This document shows positions 5,016-20,851 of a DNA stretch of 30,706 nt, in pieces. The stretch is from IMG/VR virus record IMGVR_UViG_3300027733_000151, positions 1-30,706 of that record; one strand, given 5' to 3'. How positions within the stretch are numbered: position 1 is the first letter of the stretch; each line of letters starts with the position of its first letter. Both the position numbers and the translations under genes were made by a program. The stretch is from a virus. The notes under the pieces are model-generated. The model was not told the origin of the DNA. It searched no databases and saw nothing but the letters and a program-made list of their open reading frames with translations.

Positions 5016-6314
5016 TTAACCTTTTGTTTTTCTTAATTGTTCTAATTGGATAATAATATCATCCTGTTCATCTTGTATTTGTTTTAACATATTTTGTCTA
5101 GCAACCAATGGATCTTTGTTTATGTAATCGTTTAGATTAACATTAACATATATAGGTTTTTGTTCTAATTGTAATTGCATAAAGAAATTAGGATTAGGAA
5201 CACCTACCATTTGTCTTTGCTGATAAAAAGGTTTAGATTCATACGCACTTAAACTAGGTTGATTAACTTTTAATGCGTCAATTTTTATCTCTTGTACTGA
5301 TTTCACTTTTACTTCTGCTATTTTTACTTCCGTTCCTATTTTATTGTCTGTTAATTTTGTTTTTACTTCCTGTTGTGTACTTGTTACAGAAGGTTTTTCT
5401 TCGCTTACTGAAGTCTTAACAGACTTATCTTCTGAAGTAGAAACAGTAGTATTTTCTTTAGCTGTGGGTAACTCTTCTTTTGTAGATTTTTGTTCTTGTA
5501 TTGTTCCTTCTTTAGTTACGCCTTGTTCTTTATTAACTTCTTTAGGTTGTTCTGTGGATTGTTTTGGTTGTTCTTGTAATGGTTGCGTTAACTGAATTGT
5601 TTCATTTACCTTTGTTGGTTCAGAAGATTGCTGAACGATAATAGGAGATTCTATTACTGGAGCTTCAATAATTGCAACAACGACAGGTTCTGTAATTTTA
5701 ACTTGTTCTATAATTGGTGTTACAATTTCAATTGGAGCAATAACAATAGGTGGAGTTGGATTAGTTATATAAGTAATAGATAAAGTTGGATTCTTTAAAT
5801 CAGCAGCATAATGATATGGAGAATTGGTAGATTCGTAAAAAGAAAACTTACTTGTTATATTATAATTTGCTTGTGTATTTTTATCTACGATAGCTGTGTT
5901 TGTATATGTATTAAAATAACTTGAAGTATAAGGTATAATTTTATTCTGTGTTGTTACTCCGCCATTATCATCTGTTATTATTTGCGTCATAGTAACATTT
6001 TGATTTTGATTGCCAGACCAATACCAAACATCAACACCTTGATTAGAAGTAAATCCTTCATTAATTTGTGCTTTAGATAAACCTACGTTTGTTAATGAGA
6101 TTGTATTTTGAATAGACTTTCCACTAACACCGGCAATAGTTTCGTTACCATGAGTAGAATATAAGTTAGTTCCACTCCAACCATTAGTTGTTGTAAATAC
6201 TTTAGGTGTTAAGTTTGTAGTTGTTGTTGTTTGAGAGAATGAAACTACAGAAGTAATAAGCCAAATAATAAAGGTATAAAATATAACCATGAATTTTCTT
6301 TTGCTTCGTACCAA
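5016..6314 (-). CDS. Exported protein with P/E/K-rich linker, function unknown
   Basis: The product has a signal peptide (basic RSKRK then a hydrophobic stretch FIIWLITSVVSF, likely cut near SFSQ). A Thr/Asn-rich beta domain of about 160 residues follows, then a long low-complexity region rich in Pro, Ile and Val (about 185-230) turning into Glu/Lys/Gln/Thr (about 230-340). A conserved-looking C-terminus contains YESKPFYQQRQMVGVPNPNF and a helical tail. The frame opens with TTG at 6314; an ATG at 6290 is the alternative (424 residues), but it loses the basic n-region. Its start overlaps the frameshift extension of the upstream gene. The elongated form suggests a protein spanning or decorating the envelope, or a virion appendage. 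No family recognised. Confidence 0.7.
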   Translation of the reverse strand: MVRSKRKFMVIFYTFIIWLITSVVSFSQTTTTTNLTPKVFTTTNGWSGTNLYSTHGNETIAGVSGKSIQNTISLTNVGLSKAQINEGFTSNQGVDVWYWSGNQNQNVTMTQIITDDNGGVTTQNKIIPYTSSYFNTYTNTAIVDKNTQANYNITSKFSFYESTNSPYHYAADLKNPTLSITYITNPTPPIVIAPIEIVTPIIEQVKITEPVVVAIIEAPVIESPIIVQQSSEPTKVNETIQLTQPLQEQPKQSTEQPKEVNKEQGVTKEGTIQEQKSTKEELPTAKENTTVSTSEDKSVKTSVSEEKPSVTSTQQEVKTKLTDNKIGTEVKIAEVKVKSVQEIKIDALKVNQPSLSAYESKPFYQQRQMVGVPNPNFFMQLQLEQKPIYVNVNLNDYINKDPLVARQNMLKQIQDEQDDIIIQLEQLRKTKG

Positions 6315-6330
6315 GCGTCTATATCTTCAA

Positions 6331-6942
6331 TTACTTTTTTTCAGGTAAAGACTCCTGCTTTTTTGTTTCTTCAATAATTCTTAATTTTTCAACATATAAA
6401 TTATAATCTGGTCTTAACTTATCATACTTCAACCATTGCGCTGTTGCTTCGCTTCCAATCTTACCTTCAAATGGACATGGTGTTCCTGAGTTCTCCATTG
6501 CATGGAATACTCTTGCGTCTTGGCAAAGAATAGAAACAGAAGCTACTTTCATTCCAAGATCATTTAATACTTTTGCTAGTTTAATTCTTTCGCAGTTCTC
6601 ATCTCTAGTATAACTTCCACCAGATATTCCTACTCCGAATGTTGACACTCCACCACTATATCCGACAACGCATAAGTCTTGTGAGAAGGCAGACATTGCT
6701 GGTGCAGATGCAGTTGCTGCAACTCTAGTGTCTCCTGAATAGGCGTTAGAGGTAGAATTAGTTGTTGTAGTAGAATTAGATGAAGAACCTGATTGAAACG
6801 TTGAATTAGAGGTACTAGTATAGCCACCAGTAATAGAAGTATTACTACCAGAAGCATTGTTCTGAGTCGTTGTTTGAGATGATGCACTAATGATTAAGCA
6901 TAGTATTAAAACTATAGTTGTTGGTATAATGTTCTTTCTCAT
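6331..6942 (-). CDS. Exported Ser/Thr-rich protein with conserved Cys domain
   Basis: 203 residues. Signal peptide MRKNIIPTTIVLILCLIISA, then about 50 residues of Ser/Thr/Asn-rich linker, then a compact domain with CVVGYSGGVSTFGVGISGGS, DENCERIKLAKVLNDLGMKV, SILCQDARVFHAMENSGTPC and FEGKIG. Four cysteines (apart from one in the signal peptide) could form disulfides outside the cytoplasm. The DENCERIKLA-LCQDxRVF-GTPCP pattern recurs in marine phages, to my memory, as a protein of unknown function. The gene ends in a GAA AAA AAG TAA context that is a strong -1 frameshift site, see the separate entry. It follows the lysis genes and is paired with another exported protein gene. Confidence 0.8.
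   Translation of the reverse strand: MRKNIIPTTIVLILCLIISASSQTTTQNNASGSNTSITGGYTSTSNSTFQSGSSSNSTTTTNSTSNAYSGDTRVAATASAPAMSAFSQDLCVVGYSGGVSTFGVGISGGSYTRDENCERIKLAKVLNDLGMKVASVSILCQDARVFHAMENSGTPCPFEGKIGSEATAQWLKYDKLRPDYNLYVEKLRIIEETKKQESLPEKK
6334..6356 (-). promoter_or_regulatory. Programmed frameshift signal: slippery heptamer plus internal Shine-Dalgarno
   Basis: The heptamer A AAA AAG occupies 6334-6340 in the correct phase, directly before the TAA stop. AGGAG (6352-6356 on the minus strand) lies 11 bases upstream. The same two elements, at similar spacing, drive -1 slippage in Escherichia coli dnaX. A weak stem GCTT/AAGC with a six-base loop lies about 17 bases downstream. Confidence 0.55.
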
Positions 6943-16259: not shown

Positions 16260-17045
16260 CTATGCAACCCTCATTTCTTTATTCATGTGCGACATATCTC
16301 TACCAAGTTTATATCCATTATTCAAATACTCTTGTTTTAATTCTTTTTTAATTCTTTTAGAAGTATTATCTTTGTTAATCCAAATTAAATTTGAGTAAGT
16401 AATACTATAATTTTTTCTTTGTGCATCTGAGCAAACTTGAAACTGTCTAGCATATTTAATCTTTGCTTTAGTTTCGTTTGAAAGTTTTTTGCCAGTATGT
16501 GCAATAGATTGTTTTCTTTTAGTTTCTAATGATGCTTTTTTACCAAGATTATATTTATTACCTTTATTTAATATAACAAATATTGCTTTAGATTTTTCAC
16601 TCATCTTTCTACCCATATTTGCTAAGCTAATTTTTTTTCTAGTTGATTCTGGTAATTTAGTTCCTGTTAATGTTTTAGATATTTTTGCTTTCCACTCAGG
16701 AGTTAATCTTCTACCTTTTAATGATGCAGCAAATTCACTTCTTAATTTTTGATATACTCTTGAATGAATCTTATAATCTCTTTTGCAGAACCTAGACTTA
16801 GATGTCATAAATATAAAAGCATTTAGCATCTTATGCTTAGCATTACCTGAAGTACAATAAGGTAACAATAAATGAATTATATAATGTTCTCTTGCAGTAA
16901 GATTAACAATATTATCTTTATCATTTGAACCACCACAGCTTTTAGGAATGATATGGTGAACTTCTTTATATCCTTCTAATGTTCTGTTCTTAGCTTTAGC
17001 AATTATCTTATCATGCCAAACTTTATATTTGTTTTCAATAAACAT
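16260..17045 (-). CDS. HNH homing endonuclease with NUMOD3 repeats
   Basis: 261 residues. The HNH core EVHHIIPKSCGGSNDKDNIV (29-48: H30/H31, N45/N48) continues with NLTAREHYIIHLLLPY (H54, H58). DNA-binding NUMOD3-like repeats follow between about 107 and 200 (KGRRLTPEWKAKISKTLTG, ESTRKKISLANMGRKMSEKS, SLETKRKQSIAHTGKKLSNE). The C-terminus (NYSITYSNLIWINKDNTSK, LKQEYLNNGYKLGRD) matches the wing of phage homing enzymes. It is a free-standing mobile gene, not in an intron, lodged between two fibre units. It cuts related phage genomes lacking it and spreads by repair. Its frame is continuous with the following fibre gene except for one TAG. Confidence 0.9.
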   Translation of the reverse strand: MFIENKYKVWHDKIIAKAKNRTLEGYKEVHHIIPKSCGGSNDKDNIVNLTAREHYIIHLLLPYCTSGNAKHKMLNAFIFMTSKSRFCKRDYKIHSRVYQKLRSEFAASLKGRRLTPEWKAKISKTLTGTKLPESTRKKISLANMGRKMSEKSKAIFVILNKGNKYNLGKKASLETKRKQSIAHTGKKLSNETKAKIKYARQFQVCSDAQRKNYSITYSNLIWINKDNTSKRIKKELKQEYLNNGYKLGRDMSHMNKEMRVA

Positions 17046-17367: not shown

Positions 17368-17937
17368 TTAAGTTACTTTCCATATTTTTACGTCTGCATA
17401 AACTTCTACAACTGAAAAACTGCAAGAAGCTCCAAAACCATTACCAGAAACAGTTGCACTACATCTATGTTGAAGTTCAAAAGTTTTTTGTGATGATATT
17501 GTAAATCTTCCTATTACTCTTGAATTACCTGCTACAAAACCAGAACCAGAAGAATAATTTGATGAACCAATTAAAACATCAGAACTATCTGTTATATTTC
17601 TTAATTTTAATTTATGATTTTCACCAGTATAAACTTCTGCAATAGCATCTATATAATAAGTTCCACTTGGTAATATAATTTGATTTGATGATAATGAAGC
17701 ACCAGATATTTCATTTGTTAAAGAAGTATTTAATGTTCTTGTCTGCCAAGCACCAGAAGTAAATGTTCCACCAGCTGTTCCACTAGCCTTTTCATCTCTT
17801 ACATGAAGTAATTCTTTACCAAATGGATTTGCCAAATCATCTAGTTTAGCAGATGTAATACCAGCACTAGCATTAATATCGGCATTAACTATTGTGCCAT
17901 CAGTTATTCCTAGTGATTGTATTTTTGTTAGTGGCAT
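17368..17937 (-). CDS. Short tail fibre (fibre unit 2)
   Basis: 189 residues. A short stalk-like N-terminus with DGTIVNADINASAGITSAKL (13-32) is followed by a beta-rich C-terminal domain (about 45-189) containing SGTYYIDAIAEVYTGENHKL, LRNITDSSDVLIGSSNY, VIGRFTISSQKTFELQHRC and SFSVVEVYADVKIWKV, of jelly-roll type. The N-terminal motif is shared almost letter for letter with the fibre at 18202-18768. Likely a trimeric receptor-binding tip. Confidence 0.75.
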   Translation of the reverse strand: MPLTKIQSLGITDGTIVNADINASAGITSAKLDDLANPFGKELLHVRDEKASGTAGGTFTSGAWQTRTLNTSLTNEISGASLSSNQIILPSGTYYIDAIAEVYTGENHKLKLRNITDSSDVLIGSSNYSSGSGFVAGNSRVIGRFTISSQKTFELQHRCSATVSGNGFGASCSFSVVEVYADVKIWKVT

Positions 17938-17938
17938 A

Positions 17939-18199
17939 TTATCCTATTATACTTTTAATCTCAGCATCATTCAAACCTAATGCTTTAAGTTTGTTTAGTG
18001 CTGATTGTTTGTTAGCTTTTTCTTGTTCAATTCTATTATCTTCTGCAGTTTGTAATTCTGTTTGTTTAGCTAGGATAATGTTGTTAGCAATTACTGGAGT
18101 GTTTTCTAACCACTCTATTCTATTAACATCATCATCTGATACAGATACTACTGCATTTGGATTAATTACTAGTATTGTATTTATAATATTTATTTTCAT
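17939..18199 (-). CDS. Small helical protein after a fibre gene (fibre unit 1 accessory)
   Basis: 86 residues: a short beta start (MKINIINTILVINPNAVVSV), an alpha-helical middle with LAKQTELQTAEDNRIEQEKA and an end LNKLKALGLNDAEIKSIIG that matches the K-L-x-x-LGLxxxEIxxxxG tail of common small fibre-accessory proteins. By position it is the partner of the 188-residue fibre, from which two bases separate it. Chaperone role inferred. Confidence 0.65.
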   Translation of the reverse strand: MKINIINTILVINPNAVVSVSDDDVNRIEWLENTPVIANNIILAKQTELQTAEDNRIEQEKANKQSALNKLKALGLNDAEIKSIIG

Positions 18200-18201
18200 A
18201 A

Positions 18202-18768
18202 TTAACCTTTAATTTCTAAACAAGTTATTGTATTCATTGAACCTTGACCAATAGTACCAGTTCCACCACCCATTCTAAAATATACTTGATAAGTTGTAGC
18301 CGAAGTAGTTGCAGGAGAATCTAAATATGCACCAGACATAAATGTAATTTCTCCATTATAGTCAGTACCAAAACCAGCATTTCCATTTCCTAAATTTGTT
18401 GAATCTTTATAAATTGTTAAAAAAATATTTCCAACAGCTGGAGCTCCTCTACCAACAACATTAGTTAATATTAAAATTTTATTTGATGCAGACGCAGGAG
18501 TTATTGTTACAGATAAAGTATTTGAAGCTGTTACAAAAGAAGTTGATGATGTTGATCTTGATGTTGTGTCAGTAGCACTTACAACTTGAATAACTTGTCC
18601 AGCAGTTGCACCAACACCAGATAACTTAGTAGATACAATAGCGGCACTTGCATTAATGTCAGCATTAACAATAGTACCATCTACAATCTTTGCAGATGTT
18701 ATAATGCTATCAGCTATATCCGCAGAAGTTAAAGGTACTGCAGAAGGTTTATTTCCTATGAAAGGCAT
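18202..18768 (-). CDS. Short tail fibre (fibre unit 1)
   Basis: 188 residues. N-terminal MPFIGNKPSAVPLTSADIAD, then stalk-type DGTIVNADINASAAIVSTKL, both typical of marine-phage short fibres. A C-terminal beta domain (about 55-188) with TASNTLSVTITPASASNKIL, ILTNVVGRGAPAVGNIFLTI, YNGEITFMSGAYLDSPATTS and YQVYFRMGGGTGTIGQGSMN, a jelly-roll-like tip. Shares the stalk motif with 17368-17937. Confidence 0.75.
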   Translation of the reverse strand: MPFIGNKPSAVPLTSADIADSIITSAKIVDGTIVNADINASAAIVSTKLSGVGATAGQVIQVVSATDTTSRSTSSTSFVTASNTLSVTITPASASNKILILTNVVGRGAPAVGNIFLTIYKDSTNLGNGNAGFGTDYNGEITFMSGAYLDSPATTSATTYQVYFRMGGGTGTIGQGSMNTITCLEIKG

Positions 18769-18780
18769 AATTACTTTCTG

Positions 18781-19104
18781 TTATGATATTGCATCAACAG
18801 TTGAAACCCAAGTATCTAAAGATGAAGCTGTATCTGATACAACTTTTAAAATATCTCCAGACTGAACTACAACTTTAGCACCACCATCAAGAACTTGTAA
18901 TGCTGAACCTGAAGGGATAGGTGCATTTTTTACTAAATAAAAATCGTTAGTACCATCATTAATAAATACTGAAGCATTAACTGCAGAACCAGTTACATTG
19001 GCAACTGATATACCAACTATTGTATCGTTTGAATTTGCTGTAAATAAAGTAGCTGCTGATGTTCCAGTTAGTCTAGCTTTATATCTTGTGAAATCTTGTG
19101 CCAT
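18781..19104 (-). CDS. Small beta-rich structural-type protein (paralogue of 14531-14854)
   Basis: 107 residues: FTRYKARLTGTSAATLFTAN, VGISVANVTGSAVNASVFIN, DGTNDFYLVKNAPIPSGSAL, VVVQSGDILKVVSDTASSLD. The order of strands and the GDILKV-type element match the protein at 14531-14854. This type is common in marine phages, where it is thought to be a virion surface or tail accessory protein. It lies between the long fibre and the first short fibre unit. Confidence 0.75.
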   Translation of the reverse strand: MAQDFTRYKARLTGTSAATLFTANSNDTIVGISVANVTGSAVNASVFINDGTNDFYLVKNAPIPSGSALQVLDGGAKVVVQSGDILKVVSDTASSLDTWVSTVDAIS

Positions 19105-19144
19105 ATTATTTTCCTATATATTAATTTGTTTTATAAAGCAATAC

Positions 19145-20851
19145 CTACAGCGCTATTGACATGGCAATAACGAACCCTGCACTTGGTTTGCTTGTTAATT
19201 GTGTTTGAATACTAGATGTTACACCATCTAAATAACCAAACTCCGTATTACTTACAACACCTGTTCCAATCTTAGTTGCAGCTATTGAATTAACTGCAAG
19301 TGATATTGTACCAGAAGAAGTTATTGGACTTCCTGTTACTGTAAATTCTGAAGATCCTGAATCAGCTACTGCTACTGAAGTTACTGTACCACCTGAACTT
19401 GGGAATACTTGTGTATATGTAATTGCACTAGAACCAAGTGTAGCACTTGTGTCTGTAGTACATAAATACATTGTATCAGCATTTGTTGTACCTTCAGATA
19501 TTAAAATTAACTGTCCAGCTATTTCTGATATTATATCAAATTCTGTATCTCTTGAAGCTGTACCTGAAGCAACAACAGTATATAAACCATTTTGAGAAGT
19601 AGTAGTTTGATCTTTTAATAAAACTCTATTTCCTGTTGCTAAAGTAACACCATCTATAACATCACCATTTTCTAATCCTGAAGCAATAACAACATTTGCA
19701 GTAGATGCAACTCTTGCAATAACTCTTGTTCTAAGTCCAGTAACTAAATTATCAACATAGTTTTTAGTAGCAGCTTCAGAAGAAGATGAAGGATCACCTA
19801 ATCCTGTAATTGTTCCGCCAGTTAAAGCTACGTTGTTAGCATTTTGAGTTGCTATAGTTCCTAATCCTAATGTTGTTCTTTGAGCAGAAGCACTAGCATC
19901 ATCAATTAATGCTTTACCAGCAGTTGTTAAATCAAATACTGCAGCTGTTCCTGATCCTGTAAATTGAATACCTTTATCAGCAGCAGAAGTTAATCCTGCA
20001 ATCGCTGCAAGTTCAGCATCGTATGCTTGTACGTTTGTACCAATAGCTAAACCTAAATTAGTTCTAGCAGTAGATGCAGATGATACATCAGATAAATTAC
20101 TTGAAGCTGTAAGTTTAGTTCCAAGTTGCGTTTGAATAGCACTTGTTACTCCAGATACATAACCTAGTTCAGTATCTGTTACTGTTGATACAGCAATCTT
20201 TCCAGATGAATTGGATATAGCAGCTCTACTAGCAGTTAAATCAGATGTTACTACAGTTGTAGCAGCTCCTGTTATTGTAGCTTGTTTAGCATTTAATTGT
20301 GTTTGTATTGCAGATGTAACTCCGTCAAGAAATGCAAATTCTGAATTAGATACTAAACCACCGCCAATTTTAGTTGCGTCAATTGCAGCTGCTGTTGCGA
20401 CTTTAGCATTTGTAATTACTAGTTCTGGTATTGAATCATTTGTTTTAGATAAAACTGCGACATAAATACTTACTGCTTCATTAGCTAATGAACCGCTATC
20501 CCATGTTACTGTTACAGTTGTATTAGTTGAAAATGTAGTTGCACTTATTGTTCCATAAATAGTTCCTGGAGTTGTAGCTATTGCTTTTACTCTACGACCT
20601 ACATGATAAAAACTTGTAACATCTACACCTGATACTGTGAACGAAGTTGCTGAAGCATAAGTAATAGTAAATGAACCATCACCATCTCCATAAATAACCC
20701 ATTGAGAATCGTTATACCATTCTCTAATTTCTGCAGCTAATCCTCTAAAAGCATTATTAATATTAGAAGGTAACATTCCTTCTGCTGTACTAATACTTCC
20801 TATTGTAGTATTATTTGCCGCTGTTGTGCTGTAATCTTTTATTCCTGCCAT
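19145..20851 (-). CDS. Long tail fibre (stalk type), ends in a repeat
   Basis: 568 residues. The N-terminal MAGIKDYSTTAANNTTIGSI, SNINNAFRGLAAEIREWYND and WVIYGDGDGSFTITY is a typical attachment domain of podoviral fibres. The body consists of strand-turn repeats, with a TK-IG-G-VSN-EF-LDGVTS-IQTQL unit at about 159-189, a partial copy at about 222-246 (ELGYVSGVTSAIQTQLGTKL) and a final copy at about 524-554. Only about 14 residues follow the last copy, so a knob or tip domain is missing. It probably forms a trimeric fibre on which the short-fibre proteins may act as tips. Confidence 0.85.
   Translation of the reverse strand: MAGIKDYSTTAANNTTIGSISTAEGMLPSNINNAFRGLAAEIREWYNDSQWVIYGDGDGSFTITYASATSFTVSGVDVTSFYHVGRRVKAIATTPGTIYGTISATTFSTNTTVTVTWDSGSLANEAVSIYVAVLSKTNDSIPELVITNAKVATAAAIDATKIGGGLVSNSEFAFLDGVTSAIQTQLNAKQATITGAATTVVTSDLTASRAAISNSSGKIAVSTVTDTELGYVSGVTSAIQTQLGTKLTASSNLSDVSSASTARTNLGLAIGTNVQAYDAELAAIAGLTSAADKGIQFTGSGTAAVFDLTTAGKALIDDASASAQRTTLGLGTIATQNANNVALTGGTITGLGDPSSSSEAATKNYVDNLVTGLRTRVIARVASTANVVIASGLENGDVIDGVTLATGNRVLLKDQTTTSQNGLYTVVASGTASRDTEFDIISEIAGQLILISEGTTNADTMYLCTTDTSATLGSSAITYTQVFPSSGGTVTSVAVADSGSSEFTVTGSPITSSGTISLAVNSIAATKIGTGVVSNTEFGYLDGVTSSIQTQLTSKPSAGFVIAMSIAL

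Follow-up and report, generated by a model that had tools for sequence, protein, structure and literature searches.

A conserved putative programmed −1 frame change predicted to add a hydrophobic tail to an exported protein of marine phages

Does the exported-protein gene at positions 6331–6942 (minus strand) of the virus record IMGVR_UViG_3300027733_000151, whose full 30,706-nt stretch is called the window here, end only at its own stop codon, or is it also decoded past this stop in another frame? The 203-aa product of the gene, a member of phrog_20531, consists of a Sec signal peptide followed by a Ser/Thr/Asn-rich low-complexity linker, a conserved domain with four invariant Cys residues, and a charged C-terminal helix. 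The 3′ end of the ORF reads GAA AAA AAG TAA, in which an in-phase slippery heptamer A AAA AAG (6334–6340, minus strand) covers the last two sense codons and abuts the 0-frame TAA stop (6331–6333, minus strand), replaced by TAG in most close relatives. A Shine-Dalgarno-like (SD-like) AGGAG element is located at 6352–6356 (minus strand) with an 11-nt spacer to the heptamer, and a TGA in the −1 frame directly 5′ of the slip site (6341–6343, minus strand) bounds the slip zone. The −1 frame (6245–6334, minus strand) encodes a tail of 29 codons, VIEDIDAWYEAKENSWLYFIPLLFGLLLL, closed by a TAG that ends at 6245; ATG, GTG and TTG are absent from all 29 codons. A frameshift product of 232 aa is thus predicted, compared to 203 aa without the shift. 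A previous sequence-only reading of the window had described the gene and its in-phase heptamer exactly to the base, and its claims of the AGGAG at 6356–6352, of the open −1 frame without ATG and of the TGA before the slip site were equally correct. It overlooked the overlap of the −1 tail with the next gene at 5016–6290.

Relatives of the gene were drawn from viral contigs, annotated phages and genome contigs, and yielded 411 related loci with a readable 3′ end, corresponding to 238 distinct 3′ contexts. Another 25 loci came from the genome contigs, almost all of them in metagenome-assembled genomes, and included no clear cellular gene. The relatives showed three tail states. In state (i), represented after inspection by 84 distinct genes, a short hydrophobic C-terminus is encoded in the −1 frame past the stop; in state (ii) (74 contexts), an equivalent hydrophobic C-terminus is encoded in frame; and in state (iii) no such tail is present, some of the loci carrying a separate ATG-started small membrane ORF instead. 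The cultured pelagiphage Mosig EXVC030M belongs to state (i) and has the same architecture as the window, with A AAA AAG, TAA and the tail INKLWITIPLMLFFGVAF; of the other cultured phages, HTVC115P belongs to state (ii), and HTVC023P and HTVC202P to state (iii). The Mosig −1 tail ends with LWITIPLMLFFGVAF before its stop, compared to NIIPMVITALAFGVAF at the end of the HTVC115P in-frame tail. The tails have a median of 15 uncharged residues, which is short for a transmembrane helix, and no positive charges follow them. An FG pair was found within the last 12 residues of 71 of the 84 −1 tails vs only two of the 74 in-frame tails, the latter being more varied. Mosig EXVC030M also carries an unannotated conserved ORF of 37–42 aa with a hydrophobic N-terminus (MDYDTINVILWSCVLAYASIKFYNFMHGLNPYDF) at L081:2031–2150, similar to ORFs in L044, L055, L063 and L069. 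In Mosig-type loci this small ORF, read in the third frame, shares bases with the −1 tail, and the same DNA stretch appears to encode two hydrophobic peptides.

The sequence-only reading had proposed to check whether the slippery site and the hydrophobic −1 tail were conserved together. The two were kept together and lost together: all 84 state (i) genes had an in-phase X XXY YYZ heptamer in the interval from the last −1 stop to the 0-frame stop (81 A AAA AA[A/G], abbreviated A6R, and three C CCA AAG), and close relatives of the window (L024–L037 and L045) contained neither the tail nor an in-phase heptamer in the zone, their overlap zone being 3 nt long. Within the last 35 codons, A6R was present in 79/84 state (i) genes vs 6/78 genes without a tail. 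The in-frame-tail genes were scanned over 60 codons and contained A6R in 15/74 cases; a scan of their last 25 codons gave 0, a misleading value because the tail itself occupies those codons. As a control, the ends of 715 other ORFs from these loci were examined: 23 had an A6R heptamer in the zone, 18 had a hydrophobic −1 tail, and a single one had both. Because the gene ends are Lys-rich, heptamers are fairly likely by chance. The synonymous-codon null predicted 38 heptamers in the first 62 tail genes, where 57 were observed, and 8.6 in the no-tail genes, where 3 were observed. The tail state changed several times on the tree, which is based on a short alignment. By phylogenetically independent pairs, the heptamer-tail correlation was not significant, since such pairs were too few (5 well supported, of which 3–4 agreed and 0–1 opposed), with the trend in the right direction.

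The −1 frame appeared to be constrained at the protein level, with a pN/pS of 0.27–0.48 in most groups tested: 0.27 in the L051–L245 group, 0.28 in the L200 group, 0.39 in the part of the tail before the overlap in the window group, 0.43 and 0.42 in two groups with acidic tails, 0.45–0.48 in the Mosig group and 0.47 in the C CCA AAG group. The values in the other frames were mostly near or above 1, with exceptions in the 0 frame for the L051 (0.35) and L107 (0.76) groups. No purifying selection on the −1 frame was detected in the L063/L069/L178–L190 group (pN/pS 1.42), perhaps due to the overlapping small ORF. Together with the in-frame homologues, these values answered positively the question, also raised from the sequence alone, of whether the −1 frame was conserved. 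Judged by this comparison, the slip site is conserved jointly with the −1 tail, selection acts on the tail as protein, and homologues encode it in frame.

We consider it very probable that the 3′ end of the gene is decoded via a conserved programmed −1 frame change giving a soluble 203-aa and a tailed 232-aa form. Most ribosomes would terminate at the TAA to produce the 203-aa precursor, which would be exported to the periplasm in soluble form. Some of the ribosomes would slip by −1 on the A AAA AAG, aided by the pairing of the AGGAG located 11 nt upstream with the ribosome, and would add 29 residues with a hydrophobic C-terminal tail to generate the 232-aa form, probably held in the membrane. 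Slippage of RNA polymerase may instead generate this fusion in lineages that have A9–A10 runs and lack an SD. That a conserved programmed frame change extends an exported phage protein by a hydrophobic tail is a well-supported but experimentally unproven proposal: no proteomic, ribosome-profiling or reporter support exists for the −1 product, and the putative fusion rests on comparison alone. The sequence-only reading had inferred that a secreted and a tail-anchored form are made. The comparison supports the frame change and the tail, but anchoring in the membrane is only inferred from the tail, membrane insertion being untested and protein evidence lacking. That both forms are needed is likewise an inference.

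Slippage of RNA polymerase on the A run, where transcripts would gain one A residue or lose two and then yield the tail by normal translation, is an unlikely general explanation that nonetheless retains some weight. Most −1-tail lineages (58/84 genes) carry A9–A10 runs, usually without an SD-like element, and A9–A10 runs have been linked to transcriptional realignment in dnaX (PMC3711429). For these lineages without an SD, transcriptional slippage is equally likely. In the window lineage, however, the run consists of seven A residues, below the about nine expected for programmed transcriptional slippage; exactly seven were found in all 18 nearest contigs (L001–L018, from different samples) and in Mosig, and the SD-like element stands at a dnaX-like spacing. 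The C CCA AAG members cannot use A-run slippage at all. Across the family, an SD-like element at −16 to −5 was present at 20/22 A7 sites vs 7/59 A8–A10 sites (Fisher 3e-11, uncorrected for relatedness). AGGAG with the 11-nt spacer was found in three lineages (the window group, Mosig/L047 and L072/L211), its codons specifying different residues (Gln-Glu or Lys-Glu), and synonymous resampling assigned it a probability of about 4–8% in each of the three. The spacing from the window AGGAG to the next start codon is too great for this element to serve initiation of that gene. In E. coli, the dnaX signal consists of A_AAA_AAG and an SD; in Thermus dnaX, an A9 run leads to transcriptional slippage (PMC5009743, PMC3711429). 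The sequence-only reading had drawn the E. coli dnaX parallel, and the A7 run with AGGAG at 11 nt in the window matches it. A ribosomal, dnaX-like shift is accordingly what we infer for the window lineage, in the absence of reporter or ribosome-profiling data.

A downstream stem-loop was considered as a stimulator and rejected, with no signal of downstream RNA structure in the window (z about 0) or over the 84 sites (mean z −0.06). As a separate observation, a hairpin AACTACT...AGTAGTT holds the slippery heptamer in its loop at L023:3600–3640 (folding z-score −2.9 in L023) and also in the L200/L213/L216 group.

An improbable alternative is that the frame change is purely regulatory, the shifted ribosomes ending at +89, past the next start codon, and thereby tuning translational coupling of the downstream exported gene. 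In both the window and the acidic-tail group, the −1 stop does fall within the next gene, past its start codon, but the amino acids of the tail are conserved, some relatives encode it in frame, and several lineages have a tail that terminates ahead of the next start codon. An effect on translational coupling could be an addition to the tail product. The downstream gene in question encodes a 424-aa exported protein (5016–6290, minus strand; ATG at 6290) with the signal peptide MVIFYTFIIWLITSVVSFSQ and is conserved in related loci; in the window its start codon and signal peptide fall within the −1 tail (6247–6290). In the acidic-tail group, too, the −1 tail and the next gene overlap, but there the next gene is in the 0 frame.

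This overlap, in which the second half of the window −1 tail shares its bases in another frame with the start and signal peptide of gene 5016–6290, raises the very improbable reading that the tail is an accident, the −1 frame merely mirroring the next gene's signal peptide in the window or the small membrane ORF in the Mosig group. T-rich DNA encoding signal peptides is hydrophobic in more than one frame. Because its bases are shared with the overlapping signal peptide, the hydrophobicity of the window tail is not independent evidence; its second half overlaps MVIFYTFIIWLITSVVSF of gene 5016–6290, and the Mosig-group tail overlaps the 37–42-aa ORF. The comparison has nonetheless largely refuted the accident: in L048, L051–L053, L057 and L077 the −1 tail ends before the next gene starts, and overlap therefore cannot explain it there. 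In addition, the same kind of tail is found in the in-frame homologues, the pN/pS of the −1 frame is the lowest in nearly all groups, the overlapping ones included, and the non-overlapping VIEDIDAWYEAKEN part of the window tail is conserved in its own right.

That the A run was misread or misassembled, or that the gene is broken, can be practically discounted: homopolymer sites are error-prone, and the sequence-only reading had kept a homopolymer error open, but the same arrangement with its constant seven A residues recurs in the 18 contigs of different samples and in a cultured phage, with synonymous changes around the heptamer. The other alternative left open by that reading, a small gene with a non-ATG start, was rejected for the window type, where the tail contains no start codon and begins at the stop-codon overlap, ruling out separate initiation. 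No relative with a tail of the window type has a clean ATG-started tail gene; separate ATG-started small membrane ORFs do occur in other lineages, which lack the frameshift.

The programmed frame change proposed here represents recoding of a known kind in a new form, by which an exported phage protein gains a hydrophobic tail. Most known examples of programmed frameshifts in tailed phages concern tail chaperones and capsid extensions. The T3/T7 capsid protein 10B, phage Ig-like domains and lambda gpG-T resemble the present case in that one phage gene gives two products differing by a C-terminal extension, which some relatives carry in frame; they differ in being cytoplasmic virion or assembly proteins extended by domains, whereas here an exported protein receives a short hydrophobic tail. 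The A AAA AAG heptamer with an upstream SD-like stimulator is shared with E. coli dnaX, where, unlike here, the shift truncates the product rather than extending it, the protein is different, and a stem-loop is present, none having been found downstream of the phage slip site. Extension by the shift, with the 0-frame stop directly after the slip site, has been reported for a few bacterial dnaX genes. The occurrence of A7 + SD and A9–A10 versions in the phage family also resembles the ribosomal (E. coli) and transcriptional (Thermus) versions of dnaX, making this one gene family a natural comparison of the two slippage solutions. L019–L022 are closely related to the window, and a net loss of 2 nt 5′ of an A10 run has placed their tail, which ends with WYEAKDNSSSGLPFILLLLGLLVL, in frame. 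This run is followed by TTGAG, and a −1 slip would hit a stop one codon on, the reverse of the window layout; as a single lineage, it may be due to chance. A broader scenario, which remains speculative, is that the soluble and membrane-tailed forms are kept by interchangeable recoding solutions (ribosomal A7 + SD, probable transcriptional A9–A10, C CCA AAG, and the reversed layout of L019–L022), with the ratio of the forms under selection and perhaps timing or localising envelope disruption late in infection of SAR11-type hosts.

The function of the protein remains obscure. Its window version and 45 of 46 family representatives matched phrog_20531, the sole family match of the protein, and it matched no solved structure. 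A function has not been described for phrog_20531, nor did we find a structure or an annotated frameshift for this family. No consistent Pfam family was detected in the protein or in its large exported neighbours. AlphaFold modelled the window protein poorly (pLDDT 51.6). For an in-frame relative the pLDDT was 71, and that model had no PDB match at E ≤ 0.001 and matched only uncharacterised viral proteins in BFVD. The u-spanins (phage T1 gp11) are likewise exported phage envelope proteins with a C-terminal hydrophobic segment, and the family gene lies near a lysozyme or holin gene in several phages. However, u-spanins are defined by an N-terminal lipoprotein signal and the absence of periplasmic Cys (PMC6139136). 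Among 179 scanned relatives, a lipobox-like motif in the N-terminal region was found in none, an AxA-like cleavage motif in 170 and the four core Cys in all 179, so both defining features are unmet and the u-spanin identity was rejected.

In the window, the neighbours of the gene are a holin-like gene (GTA_holin_3TM, PF11351; 7069–7485, minus strand) and a lysozyme gene (Phage_lysozyme, PF00959; 7501–8037, minus strand), and a lysozyme or M15 peptidase gene is also found near the family gene in HTVC033P, HTVC023P, CRP-207 and CRP-810. The inferred site of action of the protein is the cell envelope, its gene being near the lysis genes. A lysis role for the family is only a lead, because in HTVC115P the gene directly upstream of the family member matches a tail-associated family.

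A description of frameshifting in the phrog_20531 family was not found in the open-access literature. Two forms of the exported protein appear to be produced by many marine phages of SAR11-like bacteria. The genes of this family, widespread among abundant marine phages, are annotated as hypothetical proteins that terminate at the first stop, and appear to rely on recoding to alternate their exported product between a soluble and a membrane-tailed state. The annotations of cultured pelagiphages such as Mosig EXVC030M are predicted to miss the tailed product. Elsewhere in the window, and judged by eye only, an ORF at 16260–17045 resembles an HNH-type homing endonuclease (MFIENKYKVWHDKIIAKAKN...EVHHIIPKSCGG) amid tail-fibre-like genes, and neighbouring ORFs at 17368–20851 share the repeated tail-fibre-like motifs DGTIVNADINASA and TKIGTGVVSNTEFGYLDGVTSSIQTQL.
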